Source of the DNA: Malaciobacter molluscorum LMG 25693
GTDB taxonomy: Bacteria; Campylobacterota; Campylobacteria; Campylobacterales; Arcobacteraceae
Assembly (NCBI RefSeq): GCF_003544935.1
Contig: NZ_CP032098.1
Span: 1,364,001-1,428,000 of the forward strand
Direction of reading: 5' to 3'
Length of the DNA: 64,000 bases
The notes under the pieces are model-generated. The model worked only from the letters and a program-made list of their open reading frames with translations. It did no database searches and was not told the origin of the DNA. The position numbers were made by a program, and so were the translations under genes. Positions 25,013 to 33,173 of the stretch are shown piece by piece; the first letter of the stretch is position 1, and the number at the start of each line of letters is the position of its first letter.

Positions 25013-25033
25013 ATACTCTTCTATCTAAAAGTT
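24993..25033. terminator. Bidirectional terminator, 16-base stem
   Basis: Perfect arms AACTTTTAGATAGAAG (24993-25008) and CTTCTATCTAAAAGTT (25018-25033). This is the longest perfect stem of this type in the window and includes the stop codon of the regulator gene. Confidence 0.85.
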
Positions 25034-25533
25034 TAACAATAGTCGTTCTTATACTCTACATAACGTTGCGCATGTTTTATTAATTTTTCTACGTCTTCAT
25101 TTGTAAGTTGTCTAACAACTTTAGCAGGACTTCCCATAATTAAACTATTTGGTGGAAATTCTTTTCCTTGTGTTACTAAAGAGTTAGCACCAACAATTGA
25201 ACCTTCACCGATTATTGCATTATCTAAAATTGTGGCACTCATACCTATTAGACAATTATCTTTTATTGTACATCCATGTAACATAACTTTATGTCCGATT
25301 GTTACATTGTCTCCAATAATTGTTTGTGTATCAACATCAGTATGAATCATTGATAAATCTTGAATATTACTTTTTTTACCAATTTTTATTTTATTAATAT
25401 CTGCTCTTAAAACACAACCAAACCAAACTGATGAATCTTCGCCAATTTCTATATTTCCTATTAAATCAGCACTTGGAGCAATCCAAGCTTTTTTATCAAT
25501 TTTAGGGTAGAATTCTTTAAATTTTAAAATCAT
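25033..25533 (-). CDS. Gamma-class carbonic anhydrase-like hexapeptide protein
   Basis: A 166-residue left-handed beta-helix protein of the YrdA/PaaY/CaiE group. Zinc-ligand histidines appear in LSMIHTDVD, TIGHKVM and MLHGCTI, and hexapeptide repeats run through IGDNVTIGHK and IIGEGSIVGANSLV. Members are carbonic anhydrases or inactive relatives. The C-terminal helix contains VVRQLTNEDVEKLIKHAQRY. Stands alone, AGGATG before the start. Confidence 0.85.
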   Translation of the reverse strand: MILKFKEFYPKIDKKAWIAPSADLIGNIEIGEDSSVWFGCVLRADINKIKIGKKSNIQDLSMIHTDVDTQTIIGDNVTIGHKVMLHGCTIKDNCLIGMSATILDNAIIGEGSIVGANSLVTQGKEFPPNSLIMGSPAKVVRQLTNEDVEKLIKHAQRYVEYKNDYC

Positions 25534-25591: not shown

Positions 25592-28177
25592 CTACGTAGC
25601 TTTATATTCTAAAATTATAGGTTCTGAATAATTAGGAACATCATCATATGTAAATATTGCAAAATATTTGTTTTTATCTTTTGCTCCAAATTCATCATAT
25701 GTATAGTTATCTTTACCAGCATATATTTTTTGTCCATCATGTGAGCTAAGAGGTTTCCTATATGGATTTTTAATAACTTTTATACCAACCAAATCTTCTT
25801 CTTTTGGATTTTCCCAAGAAATTTTTATTTTACCATTTTCAATTTCATATTTAGCATTTGAAACTTGATTTAAAGGGAATCTTCTTTTTGGTATATATTC
25901 AACAACTAATTTAGGTGCTAATTTATCATTTGATATTTCCCAAGATATTTTTTTATTTTTAATTGCTTTTATAGAAGAAGTAGGTTTTAAGACAAACATT
26001 ATATTTGATTTATCTTTTAATCTTTCATTTAATTCCATTTTAGCATATGAATCAAATACAAAATACTGAGTTTTATTATTTTTTAGATCATTTGCACTTA
26101 CATCATATCCAATATTTTGAATGATTTTTCTTTTTGTAATACTACTATAACTCTTTTTAGTATTGTTTTCTACAAATTCAAGATGAAATCTAATATCATC
26201 TTTAATGTAATTATTTGTTGTATTAAGTTCAATATACGCATTTGTAATAATAGTATATTCATAAGAAGGTAAAGAAGATAAATTAAACTCTAATGCACAA
26301 TAAATTTTGTTACCATTTTCATCAAAGCCTGAATTTACCTCATTTTCAAGTATCTTTTCTTTAGATATTGTATGAATAGATTTTGCATATAATTTATTAA
26401 TTGTTGGTTCTATTGTATATGTAAGTTCTAGTCTTGGACGATATGTTAATCCAAAACCAAATTTTCCATATCCAATATCCCATTGCATCATTTGAGATTT
26501 TCTTCCTACTTTTAATTCTTTAGGTCCTTCAACTCTAAAAATAACCTTTTCTTTTTCAATTTGTGATGTTAGAGCTAAAGATTCTATTCCTGATAATTCC
26601 CATTTTCTCCAAATACCTTGAGTTAATTGGTCACTTTTTGTAGGTCTTCCTATATAGCTAATGACTTTTGCGTTTTCAACTTCATCAAAATCAGTAACAT
26701 CCTCAATTGAATTTTGATCAATAATTGCAATATTCCATTCACCAAATTTTTCAATAGTTGTTGATACTCTATTTATTGGATATAAGTTTAAAGAAGCTGA
26801 TTTTATAACTGCATTTTTAGGAATTGTTTTTAAATCAATTGTAATAATAGAATATGATACACCTTTATTTTCATCAACTCCTACAAATAAAGAGTTTACT
26901 CCAAAATGTTTTTCGTTGTTATTTATATTTTCAGCAACATATCCTGTCTGAGTTGCATTTGCATAATAAGTTCTTGAATATTCATCATATTCAACATGTG
27001 TTCTTATCTTTATTTGAGGAGGGAAGGGTGATTTTAGTTTTTTTCTTTTATTTACAGCTCTTATATTAAAGTAATAATTTGTATTTGATTGTAAATTTGT
27101 ATCATAAAAATTTGAAGCTTGTGTTCTTCCTATTAGATTTGATTCTTTGCAAGACATTTTATCTTTTTTATTTCGGTATATTTCAAAAAAAATATCTTTT
27201 GATATTTTTGAATCCCATTTTAAATTAACATGATTTGAACCTATTTCTTCAACTTCAAAATTTTCAACTCTTTGTAAAGAGTTTTTTTTATCATAATTAG
27301 GTACTTCTTTTAATGCTTCAATTAATGCAGGTATATGTTCTCTTATATGTTCATTCATATCATCTAAATAATCACTTATATTTCTAGTACCTACCTCAAC
27401 AACTGTTGATAATATTCCTTTGGAAAAATAGAATTCTCTTCCACTACCTCCTATTAGTTTTGCAGGAGGTTTTCCTTGATGTATTCCATACTCTCTATTT
27501 GAAATTTTTTTTATTTTATCTGCCATATTTGCACATAATATATTTAAATCTGTTGTTTCAATTGTATCTTCATGTCTAAAATCATGTGCAGGGAAAAATA
27601 CATTACCTTGACTATGATAATCAAGTGCAATAGTGATATTTTCGTGAGTTTCAACAAATTTTTTTAAAGCTTGAGTTTCAGGTTCACTAAAAGGTTCAGG
27701 CCCTCCATAAATATTTGAAGTTGTTTGAGTTGATTTTATAAACCCAATACTAAAATTTCTATTTAAATCTACACCATATGTTCCATCTGCATTAACTCTT
27801 CTATTTTTTCTCCAAAAAGAGAAGTGAGTTTGAGAATAAGTAAAACCATCTGGATTTGCGCATGGTACTATATATATAGTAGCACTTTTTAAATATGACT
27901 CTAAAGTAGGGTCAATATTTATATTATTTAAAATATATTCTGTGAATTCAATTGCTAATTCATGTCCAATCCACTCTCTTGCATGAATTGTTCCTGTATA
28001 AAATAATGCTGGTTTTTCATGTGCACTTTCAATATCACTTGAAATTGTAATTAAATTTATATCTCTTTTTTCCCATGTTTTACCAATAGATGATAACTCA
28101 AAATTTTTAGGGAATCTTTTTTGAAACTCTTTAAAAATTTTAGTAGAATCCTCATATGTTCTATAAAGTCTTTTCAT
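25592..28177 (-). CDS. M14 zinc carboxypeptidase with fibronectin type III domains, no signal peptide
   Basis: An 861-residue protein. Residues about 1-300 are a carboxypeptidase A-like domain: zinc ligands H65 and E68 (GTIHAREW) and H188 (LDYHSQGN), C-terminal carboxylate-binding N139-R140 (VDLNRN) and catalytic E261 (TVVEVGTR). Next comes a fibronectin type III domain (about 315-395), then beta-rich segments with a repeated AxLxLY..W pattern that may be DNRLRE-like, and a final FN3-like domain (about 765-861). No export signal is visible, which is odd for this architecture. It is the last gene of the four-gene operon; its ATG follows the preceding stop codon directly. It probably trims C-terminal residues of a peptide or amide product. 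Confidence 0.85.
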   Translation of the reverse strand: MKRLYRTYEDSTKIFKEFQKRFPKNFELSSIGKTWEKRDINLITISSDIESAHEKPALFYTGTIHAREWIGHELAIEFTEYILNNINIDPTLESYLKSATIYIVPCANPDGFTYSQTHFSFWRKNRRVNADGTYGVDLNRNFSIGFIKSTQTTSNIYGGPEPFSEPETQALKKFVETHENITIALDYHSQGNVFFPAHDFRHEDTIETTDLNILCANMADKIKKISNREYGIHQGKPPAKLIGGSGREFYFSKGILSTVVEVGTRNISDYLDDMNEHIREHIPALIEALKEVPNYDKKNSLQRVENFEVEEIGSNHVNLKWDSKISKDIFFEIYRNKKDKMSCKESNLIGRTQASNFYDTNLQSNTNYYFNIRAVNKRKKLKSPFPPQIKIRTHVEYDEYSRTYYANATQTGYVAENINNNEKHFGVNSLFVGVDENKGVSYSIITIDLKTIPKNAVIKSASLNLYPINRVSTTIEKFGEWNIAIIDQNSIEDVTDFDEVENAKVISYIGRPTKSDQLTQGIWRKWELSGIESLALTSQIEKEKVIFRVEGPKELKVGRKSQMMQWDIGYGKFGFGLTYRPRLELTYTIEPTINKLYAKSIHTISKEKILENEVNSGFDENGNKIYCALEFNLSSLPSYEYTIITNAYIELNTTNNYIKDDIRFHLEFVENNTKKSYSSITKRKIIQNIGYDVSANDLKNNKTQYFVFDSYAKMELNERLKDKSNIMFVLKPTSSIKAIKNKKISWEISNDKLAPKLVVEYIPKRRFPLNQVSNAKYEIENGKIKISWENPKEEDLVGIKVIKNPYRKPLSSHDGQKIYAGKDNYTYDEFGAKDKNKYFAIFTYDDVPNYSEPIILEYKAT

Positions 28178-29677
28178 TTATTCTCCTATTTTAAATCTTG
28201 ATTTTAACTCTTCAAGTTTTCTTTTACCTATTCCTTCAATATTTTCTAGTTCATCTATTGATTTAAAAGCTCCCACATCTTTTTTATATTCTAAAATAAT
28301 TTTGGCAAGTTTTTTTCCTATACCTTTTATTTTTAATAATATATCATTATTTATATTATTAATATCTATTCTCATATCACATAAATTATTATCCCAACAT
28401 TTTAACATTTGTTCATCTATCTCTTCTAATTCAAGTAAATCTGTTGAATCAGTAATTATATTTTCTTGGACATATTGATGTATTTCAATTGCTAATTCTT
28501 CTTGCATTGCATGAAGAGTCATTAATTCTGTTAATGAGGCTTTATTTAAATTCATTTTCTTTAATTGCTTATCTACTAAATCTTTATTGTTATTAGTTTG
28601 CTTAGATAATTCAAGTCTTGTTTCTATAATGTTATTAGGAAAATTTTTATAAAAATCTTCACAAATTTTTTCCATACTAAAAGATGGATCATCATTTATA
28701 ATAAATTCTCCATCATAACTTGGTTTATATTTTGAAAAACCAATATGTCTCATTGTTCTAAGTAGATTTGAATTTATTTTTCCTAACTCTTCCCAAGAAA
28801 ATAGTGGAATATGAGGTAATTTAAATTTACCTTTTGTAAAATCCCACATTAAATATTGTCCAATCCAATCTCTAATATAAGGAAATGCTGCAAATGCTGT
28901 TGCGCATTCTAATATATATGCTTTTCCTGTTTTTTCACATATTGCAATATCACAAGCAAAATATTCAGCCCTTGCTGCTTTACTTGATTTAACTGCTAAT
29001 TCTAATGCATTCATTGGGATATTGTTATATGACATATGTCCCCCTTGAGAAGTATTAGTTATCCATTGATTTTTACCCGCATATCTCCAAAATGCACAAA
29101 CAGGTTTATGTCCAATTAGCATAACTCTTATGTCACCATTATTTTTTAATTTTATTGCATTTTGTGTATAAATTGGAGAATATTTCTTTTTATTAATCAA
29201 ATCTACTGCTTCAGCATAATTATCTACTTTATGAACATAATATCCTCCATAATTTGATGGACCATAACTTCTTTTTATAATTTGTGGATATGAAGCTTTT
29301 TCTTTTAAGTATTTTAAACCTTTTTCTTTATCTTCAAAAATTTTTGTTTTAGGAATACTTAATTTATTTTTTTTACAAAATATAGTTACATTTTCTTTTG
29401 ATTTATTAGGAAATTGTGCATGTATAGAAGGAACAAATCTAACATTAGGTAATTCCTTTGATATTTCAACAAAAGTATCATATGCTGTTGCAGGGATATT
29501 TCCTATTAAAATATCTATTTTTTTCTTTTTAATTTCATTAATAAATCTTTTTTTATCATTTTTCCAATGATAAACAACTTTTTCTATTTTATCTGGCCAT
29601 CCTTTAAAATTTGAATTATCAAAAAATCTTAGAACATAATCAAGATACAAGAAACCTAACTTTGGCAGCTTTTTCAT
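28178..29677 (-). CDS. ATP-grasp protein with two C-terminal helix-hairpin-helix domains
   Basis: A 499-residue protein. The central part (about 100-290) is a RimK-type ATP-grasp: PQIIKRSYGPSNYGGYYVHK, then RVMLIGHKPVCAFWRYAG and TSQGGHMSYN. The metal-binding end reads ACDIAICEKTGKAYILECAT; the usual ExN is EC-A, so one metal ligand is missing. Residues about 375-499 carry two ComEA-like helix-hairpin-helix units (LNKASLTELMTL, then IKGIGKKLAKIILEYK and IEGIGKRKLEELKSR). I start at the ATG at 29677, behind AGGA; the gene overlaps the upstream ligase gene by 38 bases. It may be a pseudo-ligase or a ligase acting on a partner held by the helical repeats. I know no such fusion with an assigned role. 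Confidence 0.8.
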   Translation of the reverse strand: MKKLPKLGFLYLDYVLRFFDNSNFKGWPDKIEKVVYHWKNDKKRFINEIKKKKIDILIGNIPATAYDTFVEISKELPNVRFVPSIHAQFPNKSKENVTIFCKKNKLSIPKTKIFEDKEKGLKYLKEKASYPQIIKRSYGPSNYGGYYVHKVDNYAEAVDLINKKKYSPIYTQNAIKLKNNGDIRVMLIGHKPVCAFWRYAGKNQWITNTSQGGHMSYNNIPMNALELAVKSSKAARAEYFACDIAICEKTGKAYILECATAFAAFPYIRDWIGQYLMWDFTKGKFKLPHIPLFSWEELGKINSNLLRTMRHIGFSKYKPSYDGEFIINDDPSFSMEKICEDFYKNFPNNIIETRLELSKQTNNNKDLVDKQLKKMNLNKASLTELMTLHAMQEELAIEIHQYVQENIITDSTDLLELEEIDEQMLKCWDNNLCDMRIDINNINNDILLKIKGIGKKLAKIILEYKKDVGAFKSIDELENIEGIGKRKLEELKSRFKIGE

Positions 29678-30590
29678 AATATTCCTTTTTGTTATATGTT
29701 TTTCTATCAATTAAGTCTACAATCAAATCTATTTTTTTATCATTATAGACTATACCTAATTTTTCTTGTTCTGGAGTTAAAAATGCTGGTATTCCATTTA
29801 CTTCGATGACTACATATTGTTTTTTTATTTCATCATAAATTATATCAACACCAGCAATTTCTAATCCTGTTATCTTTGCTGCTTTTTTAGCAAGATCTAT
29901 TACTTCTTCATTCTCTTCTCTTATAAATACACTTCCTCCACTTGTAATATTTGTTCTCCATTCACTTTCTTTGGCTTTTCTTCCATATAAACCTACATAT
30001 TCACCATTTACAATATCTACTCTATAATCTGTATTATCATTTTTTATAAATCTTTCAACATAAAAATATCTTGTATTAATTTGGTTTAAAAATGGTAATA
30101 ACATATCAAGAGTTGATTCATTTTCTATTTTTGTTAATCCCACACCTCCCCATCCATCTGTTGGTTTATAAACCATTTGTGACCATTTTTTTAAAATACT
30201 TCTAAGGTATTTTGCATCATCTCTATTACATAATTTATAATCAGAAGTTGGAATATTATTATTTTTTAAAAGAAATAATGTTTGGAATTTATCTTCTGTT
30301 AATTCAAAAGAATTAAAATTATTAATCATTGGCATGACTTTATTAAGAGCTTTGTATAAATACATTTGGTATTGAGTTTGTTCTCCTGCATTATAAGAAA
30401 AAAATAAATCTAATTGTTCAAGGGCTATATTATTATGAAGAATATGACCATTTTTAGAAATTGCATGTTCTAAATTTATATTTGGGATTACTTCTATATC
30501 TCTTTCTTTTAATTTACTAATCATTTTTTCTTGTATTTTATCTCCACCACCATTTTGGTAGAGCCACATTCCAATAGTTCTTTTATACAT
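29640..30590 (-). CDS. RimK-like ATP-grasp carboxylate-amine ligase
   Basis: A 316-residue ligase. ATP-binding strand MVYKPTDGWGGVGLTKIE, then RVDIVNGEYVGLYGRKAKE with the TNITSGGSVF loop, and metal site AGVDIIYDE followed by VVIEVNGIPAFL with the full ExN. This matches the RimK/LysX/MptN group, which forms amide bonds between a carboxylate and an amine (for example glutamate to a protein or amino-acid carrier). AAAAGGAAT precedes the ATG. It lies between the M20 peptidase (11 bases upstream) and the degenerate ATP-grasp/HhH protein. Substrate unknown. Confidence 0.85.
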   Translation of the reverse strand: MYKRTIGMWLYQNGGGDKIQEKMISKLKERDIEVIPNINLEHAISKNGHILHNNIALEQLDLFFSYNAGEQTQYQMYLYKALNKVMPMINNFNSFELTEDKFQTLFLLKNNNIPTSDYKLCNRDDAKYLRSILKKWSQMVYKPTDGWGGVGLTKIENESTLDMLLPFLNQINTRYFYVERFIKNDNTDYRVDIVNGEYVGLYGRKAKESEWRTNITSGGSVFIREENEEVIDLAKKAAKITGLEIAGVDIIYDEIKKQYVVIEVNGIPAFLTPEQEKLGIVYNDKKIDLIVDLIDRKTYNKKEYYEKAAKVRFLVS

Positions 30591-30601
30591 AGTGATTCCT
30601 T

Positions 30602-31690
30602 TTATTTTTGGAAATATAATAAAGTCTTAGTAATAAAATCAATTCTTTGTTCAAAACTAGACTTCAACGCTTTTTCTTTTTTAGTATGGTCATATAAACC
30701 ATAAGGGCCTAATCCATCAATAGTAATAACATTACAAGATGAAAAGATATTTGCATCACTTACTCCTCCACGATGTTCAGTTTTAATTTTAGTTTGTGTA
30801 ATTTTTTCTAGTTCTTTTATAAAATCTAATTGTTTTTGATTCTCTTGCATTACATCTCTTTGTATTAGTCCATTTAATTTTGATTTGGTTCCTTTTATAT
30901 ATGAAGTATGGGTAATTTCTTTTAGATTATTTAATAATCTATCTTTTTCTTCTGTAGATGAAAATCTAATTTCAAGAAGAAGTTCTGAATATGGTGAGAT
31001 AATATTAGCTCCAATTCCTCCTTCAACTTTACCCACATTAACTGTTGTTCCTTTTTTTAAATCAGTTAGAGCTATTAATTTTTGCATTTTATATGAAGCT
31101 TCATGATTAGCATCAATACCTTTTGTATATGAAGTTCCTGCATGGGAAGCTTTCCCTTTGCATTTTATGTTAAAAGTTCCTACACCTTTTCTTGCAGTTA
31201 CCACTTCTAGATTTTTTCCTGCTGCTTCAAATACCAAACATATGTCATAATTTTTAGCAATTTTTTTACTAATTAATTTTGAATCATCACTTCCAGATTC
31301 TTCATCACTAACAAGAAAAAAATCGATATTTCTTATTTGTTTATTTTTTTTATATATATTTCTTAGTGCTTGAAGTGCTACGATATTTCCACCTTTCATA
31401 TCACAAACACCTGGCCCATAAATATATTTTTCATCTTCTTTAAATGATTCAAATGTATTTGGAGGAAAAACTGTATCATTATGACCAAGAAGTAGTATTT
31501 TTTTACCCTTAGTTTTCTTTGTTGTATAAAGATTATGGTTTCCTATTTTTTTTCTTTTAAATATTTTATGTGTAAATCCCAATTCTAAAAGCCATTTTGT
31601 CATATATTTTGAGACATTATCAACTCCAGCTTTATTTTTAGTATATGAATTGATTTTAACTATTTTTTCTAAATCTTCTAGATAAGTCAT
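30602..31690 (-). CDS. M20 metallopeptidase, glutamate carboxypeptidase-like
   Basis: A 362-residue peptidase of the CPG2/ArgE group. Motifs are LLLGHNDTVFP (His and Asp), GPGVCDMKGGNIVAL (bridging Asp), LVSDEESGSDDS (catalytic Glu and ligand Glu), then HAGTSYTKGIDANHE and the last ligand in YGLYDHTKKE. It would cleave an amide bond beside a free carboxylate, such as a glutamyl or acyl-amino acid. I chose the ATG at 31690, preceded by AAAGGA, over an upstream ATG at 31708. First gene of the operon with the two ATP-grasp proteins and the M14 peptidase. Confidence 0.88.
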   Translation of the reverse strand: MTYLEDLEKIVKINSYTKNKAGVDNVSKYMTKWLLELGFTHKIFKRKKIGNHNLYTTKKTKGKKILLLGHNDTVFPPNTFESFKEDEKYIYGPGVCDMKGGNIVALQALRNIYKKNKQIRNIDFFLVSDEESGSDDSKLISKKIAKNYDICLVFEAAGKNLEVVTARKGVGTFNIKCKGKASHAGTSYTKGIDANHEASYKMQKLIALTDLKKGTTVNVGKVEGGIGANIISPYSELLLEIRFSSTEEKDRLLNNLKEITHTSYIKGTKSKLNGLIQRDVMQENQKQLDFIKELEKITQTKIKTEHRGGVSDANIFSSCNVITIDGLGPYGLYDHTKKEKALKSSFEQRIDFITKTLLYFQK

Positions 31691-31766
31691 AATTAAGTCC
31701 TTTAACACATTTATAACATATTATATATCATAAGTATGACATTTTGAATACAATTGTAAAAAAAGT

Positions 31767-31937: not shown

Positions 31938-33173
31938 TTATTTTCTTTTTTGTCCAGCGATAATAAATCTTAAGGCATTAAGTTTAATAAATCCTTCTGC
32001 ATCTTTTTGATTATAAACTTCATCTTCTTCAAAAGTAGAGTGAGCTTCAGAGAATAATGATTTTTTAGATTCTCTACCAACTACAATTACATTTCCCTTA
32101 TAAAGTTTTAGTTTTACTGTACCTTCTACATTTTTTTGAGTTTCATCAATTGCAGCTTGAAGCATTTCTCTTTCAGGAGAGAACCAATAACCACTATAGA
32201 TTAGTTTTGCATATTTAGGCATTAATTCATCTTTTAAATGAGCAGCTTCTCTATCTAATGTAATTGATTCAATTGCTCTATGAGCTTTAAGCATGATTGT
32301 TCCACCTGGAGTTTCATAACAACCTCTTGCTTTCATACCTACATATCTATTCTCAACAATATCAATTCTTCCGATACCATGTTTATTTCCATATTCATTT
32401 AATGTTTTTAATATAGTTGCAGGAGACATTTCTTCTCCATTAATAGCAACTGGATCACCATTTTTATATGAAATTGTAATATATTCAGCTTTATCTGGTG
32501 CTTCTTCTGGTGAGTTTGTCCATAACCACATAGATTCATCTGGTTCTGCACTTGGATCTTCTAATGCTAATCCCTCATAAGAGATATGTAAAAGATTTGC
32601 ATCCATTGAATATGGACTAACTGCAGGATTTCCATTTTCATCTAAATGTTTTTTTGCAATTTCAATACCATTTTCTTTAGCATAAGCTAATAATTTTTCT
32701 CTTGAATTTAAATCCCATTCTCTCCATGGAGCAATAACTGTAATTTCTGGGTTTAATCCTAAATAACCTAATTCAAATCTTACTTGGTCATTTCCTTTAC
32801 CCGTCGCTCCATGAGCAACTGCGTCAGCACCCATTTTATTTGCAATTTCAATTTGTTTTTTAGAGATAAGAGGTCTGGCAATTGAAGTTCCTAATAAATA
32901 TTCACCTTCATATATAGCATTTGCTCTAAACATTGGGAATACATAATCTTTAACAAATTCTTCTTTTATATCTAAAATAAAAATATTTTCAGGTTTTATT
33001 CCCATAGCCAATGCTTTTTTTCTAGCTGGCTCTACTTCTTCTCCCTGTCCTAAATCAGCTGTAAAAGTAATAACTTCTGCATTATATTCATCTTGTAGCC
33101 ATTTTAAAATAATAGAAGTATCTAAACCTCCACTATATGCTAAAACAACTTTTTTTACTTCTTTTTTGCTCAT
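31938..33173 (-). CDS. argG: Argininosuccinate synthase
   Basis: A 411-residue enzyme that joins citrulline and aspartate with ATP in arginine synthesis. Motifs: [16 protein letters not shown] (PP-loop), [25 protein letters not shown], and [16 protein letters not shown]. Length and ends are normal. argF lies at 50 kb, so arginine genes are dispersed. It is followed by a strong terminator. Confidence 0.96.

Follow-up and report, generated by a model that had tools for sequence, protein, structure and literature searches.

A conserved block of two ATP-grasp and two carboxypeptidase genes in Malaciobacter molluscorum and its relatives, a candidate system for the reversible attachment of acidic amino acids

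The window, i.e. the whole stretch of DNA that was analysed (64,000 nucleotides; contig NZ_CP032098.1, positions 1,364,001 to 1,428,000), originates from the complete 2.8 Mb genome of Malaciobacter molluscorum LMG 25693. An ORF check of its minus strand retrieved four genes that code, in transcription order, for an M20 peptidase (362 amino acids; 30602..31690), a RimK-type ATP-grasp ligase (316 amino acids; 29640..30590), a protein referred to as GraspH, consisting of an ATP-grasp domain and a C-terminal helix-hairpin-helix (HhH; 499 amino acids; 28178..29677), and a carboxypeptidase A (CPA)-like M14 zinc carboxypeptidase with fn3 and DNRLRE-type beta domains (861 amino acids; 25592..28177). 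These calls were based on ORFs and Pfam/NCBIfam matches and, for GraspH, on its ORF, Pfam, and fold. The M20 gene starts with ATG at position 31690 (alternatively, with GTG at 31708) and the GraspH gene with ATG at 29677. A gap of 11 bases separates the M20 and RimK-type genes, the RimK-type and GraspH genes overlap by 38 bases, and the GraspH and M14 genes adjoin without any gap. The tight packing on one strand reported in an earlier note on this DNA was thus confirmed to the base, and its family assignments (M20, RimK-type, ATP-grasp/HhH, and M14) were upheld by Pfam/NCBIfam. Among relatives, the overlap varied, being absent from one locus (L042) and 1 base long in another (L043); the gene set itself was kept. 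The closest named relatives of the locus were those of Arcobacter sp. CECT 8985 (GraspH 86%) and Malaciobacter halophilus (75%). The block is flanked by a gamma-carbonic-anhydrase-like gene (window 25033-25533) and argG (window 31938-33173), flanks that are common to most Arcobacter-type loci and absent from those of other families.

The four genes are a conserved functional unit and not a chance cluster. Loci were mapped for GraspH carriers from named genomes and from an order-level sample, with the four proteins placed on each, and most of these loci contained all four genes. In the Arcobacteraceae and several other families, the genes are co-directional; in other families, the M20 gene is inverted and divergent. 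Adjacency that survives such rearrangement is stronger evidence for a unit than a single tight operon. In addition, all four genes were found adjacent to each other, with the M20 gene divergent and 44-61% identity to other members, in Photobacterium sp. DA100, a gammaproteobacterium of the family Vibrionaceae, indicating that the block is either mobile as a whole or ancient. Beyond the sampled ranks of the Campylobacterota, the search covered plasmid and phage records. Linkage was thus kept in many Campylobacterota and one Photobacterium, in two gene orders; the earlier note had named scattering and lack of linkage in all relatives as evidence against its claim, and the loci mostly hold all four genes together. 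Genome-wide counts, which covered the M14, GraspH, and RimK-type genes, the link with M20 resting on adjacency, gave a similar picture. The 150 order-level genomes included 49 with M14, 49 with GraspH, 47 with RimK-type, and 46 with all three, i.e. 46 of the 51 genomes that had any of them. The co-occurrence of GraspH and M14 had a hypergeometric P of 5e-37, a statistic that ignores shared ancestry. In a phylum-level sample of high-quality genomes, GraspH was found in 31 of 298. Distance matrices of GraspH correlated with those of M14 (r=0.91) and M20 (r=0.84); RimK-type distances tracked the other genes less closely (r about 0.6).

A few genomes harboured partial or dispersed sets. Partial sets occurred in G132, G009, G001, and G316, the last of which, belonging to the same genus, kept M14 (72%; C7:99090-101669, L106) with GraspH and RimK-type absent at the thresholds used. 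Another genome of the genus (G302) was devoid of M14, GraspH, and RimK-type. The complete genome G016 contained all three genes, with GraspH about 0.84 Mb away from the RimK-type/M14 pair; in both G016 and G126, RimK-type and M14 were paired elsewhere in the genome, apart from GraspH. A sub-group of GraspH genes (L093, L097, and L057) was located away from the block, the other genes not being nearby. In G076, what remains of GraspH is a truncated fragment containing two stops (C1:157170-157466), and no M14 or RimK-type gene was found in that genome; this likely represents loss in progress. Arcobacter sp. NORP36 possessed a duplicated RimK-type gene, with a copy on either side of M20, giving rise to a five-gene block (L048:4812-7991).

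All ORFs of at least 30 amino acids from 43 loci were compared all-against-all, shadow frames being recognised by their coordinates and partners. Beyond the four genes and antisense or out-of-frame shadows, no fifth conserved family was retrieved, in agreement with the earlier note, which had seen no conventional precursor gene. This argues against a graspetide RiPP, the small precursor gene beside the ATP-grasp gene not being found among these ORFs. Nor did the 43 loci contain a conserved acyl- or amino-transferase partner beside the block. An anti-phage defence island was rejected, as there was no match to PADLOC models. Similarly, a phage origin was rejected, as a viral contig scan yielded no GraspH relative and one weak match to a phage record was at 25%; PHROG matches to M20, RimK-type, and M14 were generic only.

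The RimK-type protein matched PF08443 (E=6.5e-19; 68.7 bits versus a cut-off of 21), and its putative metal ligands D249, E263, and N265 (the Asp plus Glu-x-Asn set) as well as K142 were invariant in all 53 sequences. With a domain above the cut-off and intact metal ligands, it is predicted to be a RimK-like ATP-grasp ligase. Its best NCBIfam matches were MptN (H4MPT:alpha-L-glutamate ligase; 142 bits, cut-off 350) and then rimK_fam (123 bits, cut-off 143), followed by LysX (92 bits, cut-off 276) and the S6 ligase (50 bits, cut-off 331), all four lying under their curated cut-offs. Another, separate RimK was found in the same genome (G000:C1:1865073-1865639; L001:381-2361). This second, ordinary RimK adjoins, by visual inspection, a succinylglutamate desuccinylase/aspartoacylase-like protein, with which it possibly forms another ligase-hydrolase pair.

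GraspH contained the same ATP-grasp domain (PF08443; E=5.3e-16, 59 bits), followed by an HhH region (HHH_3; E=1.2e-20). Single-protein structure models, with 13 to 16 sequences each, had moderate pLDDT values of 70 and 73; that of GraspH (pLDDT 70) gave ArgX, RimK, and LysX as best Foldseek matches (E about 1e-12), with the RimK-RpsF complex 5zk6 among the top ones. The ATP-site Lys, Asp, Arg, Asn, Asp, and Glu residues are retained. The metal motif reads Glu-Cys-Ala instead of Glu-x-Asn, and this Ala is invariant in all 59 sequences. As the last metal ligand position is thus uniformly altered rather than decayed, GraspH would be a binding partner or else a ligase whose metal site has changed; with the canonical metal ligand missing, it may not be an ordinary ligase. 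In all members seen, its ATP-grasp subfamily deviates from the textbook metal site. The tail is an HhH of more than one sequence form: among 16 members, Pfam recognised HHH_3 in 7 and HHH_5 in 14. A few distant homologues stop short of it.

The M14 protein matched PF00246 (E=5.1e-58), in addition to fn3 and DNRLRE. The zinc site (H65, E68, and H188), the substrate-binding R123, N139, and R140, and the catalytic E261 were conserved in 46 out of 46 sequences, so that it is classified, by its residues, as a CPA-like member of M14A. Its Arg247, equally invariant (46/46), aligned without gaps to Ile255 of CPA4; the corresponding position in five unrelated bacterial M14 proteins was Thr, Asp, Ile, or a poorly aligned loop, and never Arg. 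In carboxypeptidase O (CPO), Arg255 confers acidic specificity, and FA-Glu-Glu is cleaved by an Arg255 paralogue (PMC9925722). The M14 protein therefore bears the signature of a CPO-like preference for acidic C-terminal residues. The active-site region was poor in the predicted structure model. Homologues were 854-868 amino acids long, and the M14 protein has approximately 560 residues of fn3/DNRLRE-type domains past the catalytic part. Such domains are usually extracellular, making a leaderless M14 protein that carries them odd. Indeed, none of 45 aligned M14 proteins extended N-terminally past the start of the window protein, a start that by eye does not resemble a signal peptide. The M20 protein consisted of PF01546 and PF07687, and its metal and catalytic residues H70, D72, D97, E130, E131, E155, and H335 were invariant in 50 out of 50 sequences. 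Its nearest solved relative was carboxypeptidase G2 (CPG2), a glutamate carboxypeptidase (approximately 88 bits by phmmer), and its score against the glutamate carboxypeptidase subfamily model was 181.7 bits, below the curated cut-off of 349. A glutamate specificity of M20 is suggested by this nearest relative.

A single reversible tagging cycle would accommodate two ligase-type proteins of the glutamate class together with two carboxypeptidases of acidic signature. The four genes may encode a cytosolic system by which an acidic amino acid, most likely L-glutamate, is joined through amide bonds and released again, a reading to which about even confidence is given. First, the RimK-type ligase would activate an acceptor carboxylate with ATP and attach an acidic amino acid to it. 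Second, GraspH, as a diverged partner with a RimK/LysX fold, would add a second residue or hold the acceptor or the donor, and would be anchored to a partner or to nucleic acid by its HhH tail. Lastly, M14 and M20 would strip the residues off again, rendering the pool of tagged acceptor adjustable. The order of action and the physiological role of the four enzymes are, like the acceptor and these steps, inferred. Acidic amino acids are supported by active-site residues; as the scores against MptN, RimK, and CPG2-type models all lie below their curated cut-offs, we infer glutamate specifically from family resemblance. Still hypothetical, the amide synthesis and trimming proposed in the earlier note thereby gained a conserved ligase/carboxypeptidase unit and were narrowed to acidic residues, probably glutamate. 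Its view that all four proteins look cytosolic held, as none of them displayed an evident export signal. Its suggestion of an undescribed system also agreed with the open-licence literature searched, in which no description of the four-gene combination was found and related surveys made no mention of M14 or M20; the component families are known, and their combination looks undescribed there. Members of the Campylobacterota and one of the Vibrionaceae thus possess a compact, strictly conserved set of four enzymes whose candidate substrate class, acidic residues, can be tested; if the reading is true, the set exposes an unrecognised peptide-like metabolite or reversible protein modification.

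The acceptor may be a metabolite or a protein, which are weighed about equally; the tagging cycle covers both, so that the probabilities overlap. According to a first, tentative explanation, the product of the ligases is a short acidic peptide, acylated or capped, such as an osmolyte, a storage compound, or a cofactor tail, which the peptidases recycle as conditions change. MptN, the best match of the RimK-type gene, glutamylates a cofactor, and CPG2-type M20 enzymes release glutamate from small molecules; further, a conserved precursor gene is absent from the 43 loci, and some carriers are marine or halophilic by name. However, a macromolecular substrate is suggested by the HhH tail of GraspH and by the large size and additional beta domains of the M14 protein, the 43 loci provide no acyl- or amino-transferase partner, and the model of the ligase making N-acetylglutaminylglutamine amide scored 19 bits only against a cut-off of 569. 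In a salinity study of Photobacterium damselae, one RimK and one M20 gene are reported to respond to salt in opposite ways; no link from these genes to the four-gene system could be drawn, and they were not used as evidence.

A second explanation, somewhat less probable still, is that proteins are glutamylated at the C-terminus, in a bacterial counterpart to the tubulin tyrosine ligase-like/cytosolic carboxypeptidase (TTLL/CCP) writer-eraser pair of eukaryotes, whereby the ligases write acidic tails and M14, together with M20, erases them. PMC11574253 describes eukaryotic C-terminal polyglutamylation as reversible. This explanation is consistent with the tailing of ribosomal protein S6 by RimK and the fold match of GraspH to the RimK-RpsF complex, with the acidic-specificity Arg of M14, with HHH_5 in most GraspH members, and with the lack of a small precursor. 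Against it, no target protein was identified and a separate RimK is already present in the genome. Concerning S6, its tail EAAKKAN in the window genome equals that of a genome from the same genus that lacks the system; S6 as target therefore gained no support, a limited negative that leaves out 7 of the 20 genomes and in which the G040 read looks wrong. A more specific version, a writer-eraser code in which cellular proteins gain and lose acidic tails and GraspH, non-canonical and bearing an HhH, steers the ligase to nucleic-acid-bound targets, is speculative and rather unlikely.

Thirdly, a peptide-scavenging operon with incidental ATP-grasp proteins would fit the fact that two of the four genes code for peptidases and that the nearby argG and gamma-carbonic-anhydrase-like genes are of a housekeeping type, but it is improbable, since the ligases are conserved as strictly as the peptidases, the set recurs in another class and in more than one gene order, and evident export signals are lacking. 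Finally, a LysW-type amino-group-carrier pathway with a LysX-like ligase and a LysK-like M20 hydrolase is disfavoured as highly improbable, as the LysX/ArgX fold of GraspH and the membership of LysK in the same broad M20/DapE group are opposed by the absence of a LysW carrier above the cut-off from all eight genomes searched (with no match whatever in the window genome or G070) and of a conserved carrier ORF from the 43 loci.

The proposed tagging system can be compared with several known ones. It would be alike in outline to TTLL/CCP polyglutamylation, which combines a ligase writer with an M14 eraser, whereas the four genes are not members of those families, no orthology to either TTLL or CCP having been found. 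With RimK (S6:glutamate ligase) and MptN/CofF, the RimK-type gene shares the ATP-grasp fold and the metal and ATP residues; it differs in scoring under their family cut-offs and in being paired with a second, diverged ATP-grasp protein and two carboxypeptidases. LysX/ArgX, the nearest solved folds to GraspH, have the W-x-T-N-T motif in common with it, but GraspH possesses Ala in place of the third metal ligand Asn and an added HhH tail, and is not accompanied by LysW. Similarly, M20 shares its catalytic residues with CPG2, although it remains under the subfamily cut-off and is linked to ligases. Lastly, the M14 protein has the catalytic zinc site of carboxypeptidases O and A (M14A) and, as in CPO, an Arg at position 255, whereas it is bacterial, devoid of a prodomain or leader, extended by fn3/DNRLRE-type domains, and probably cytosolic.
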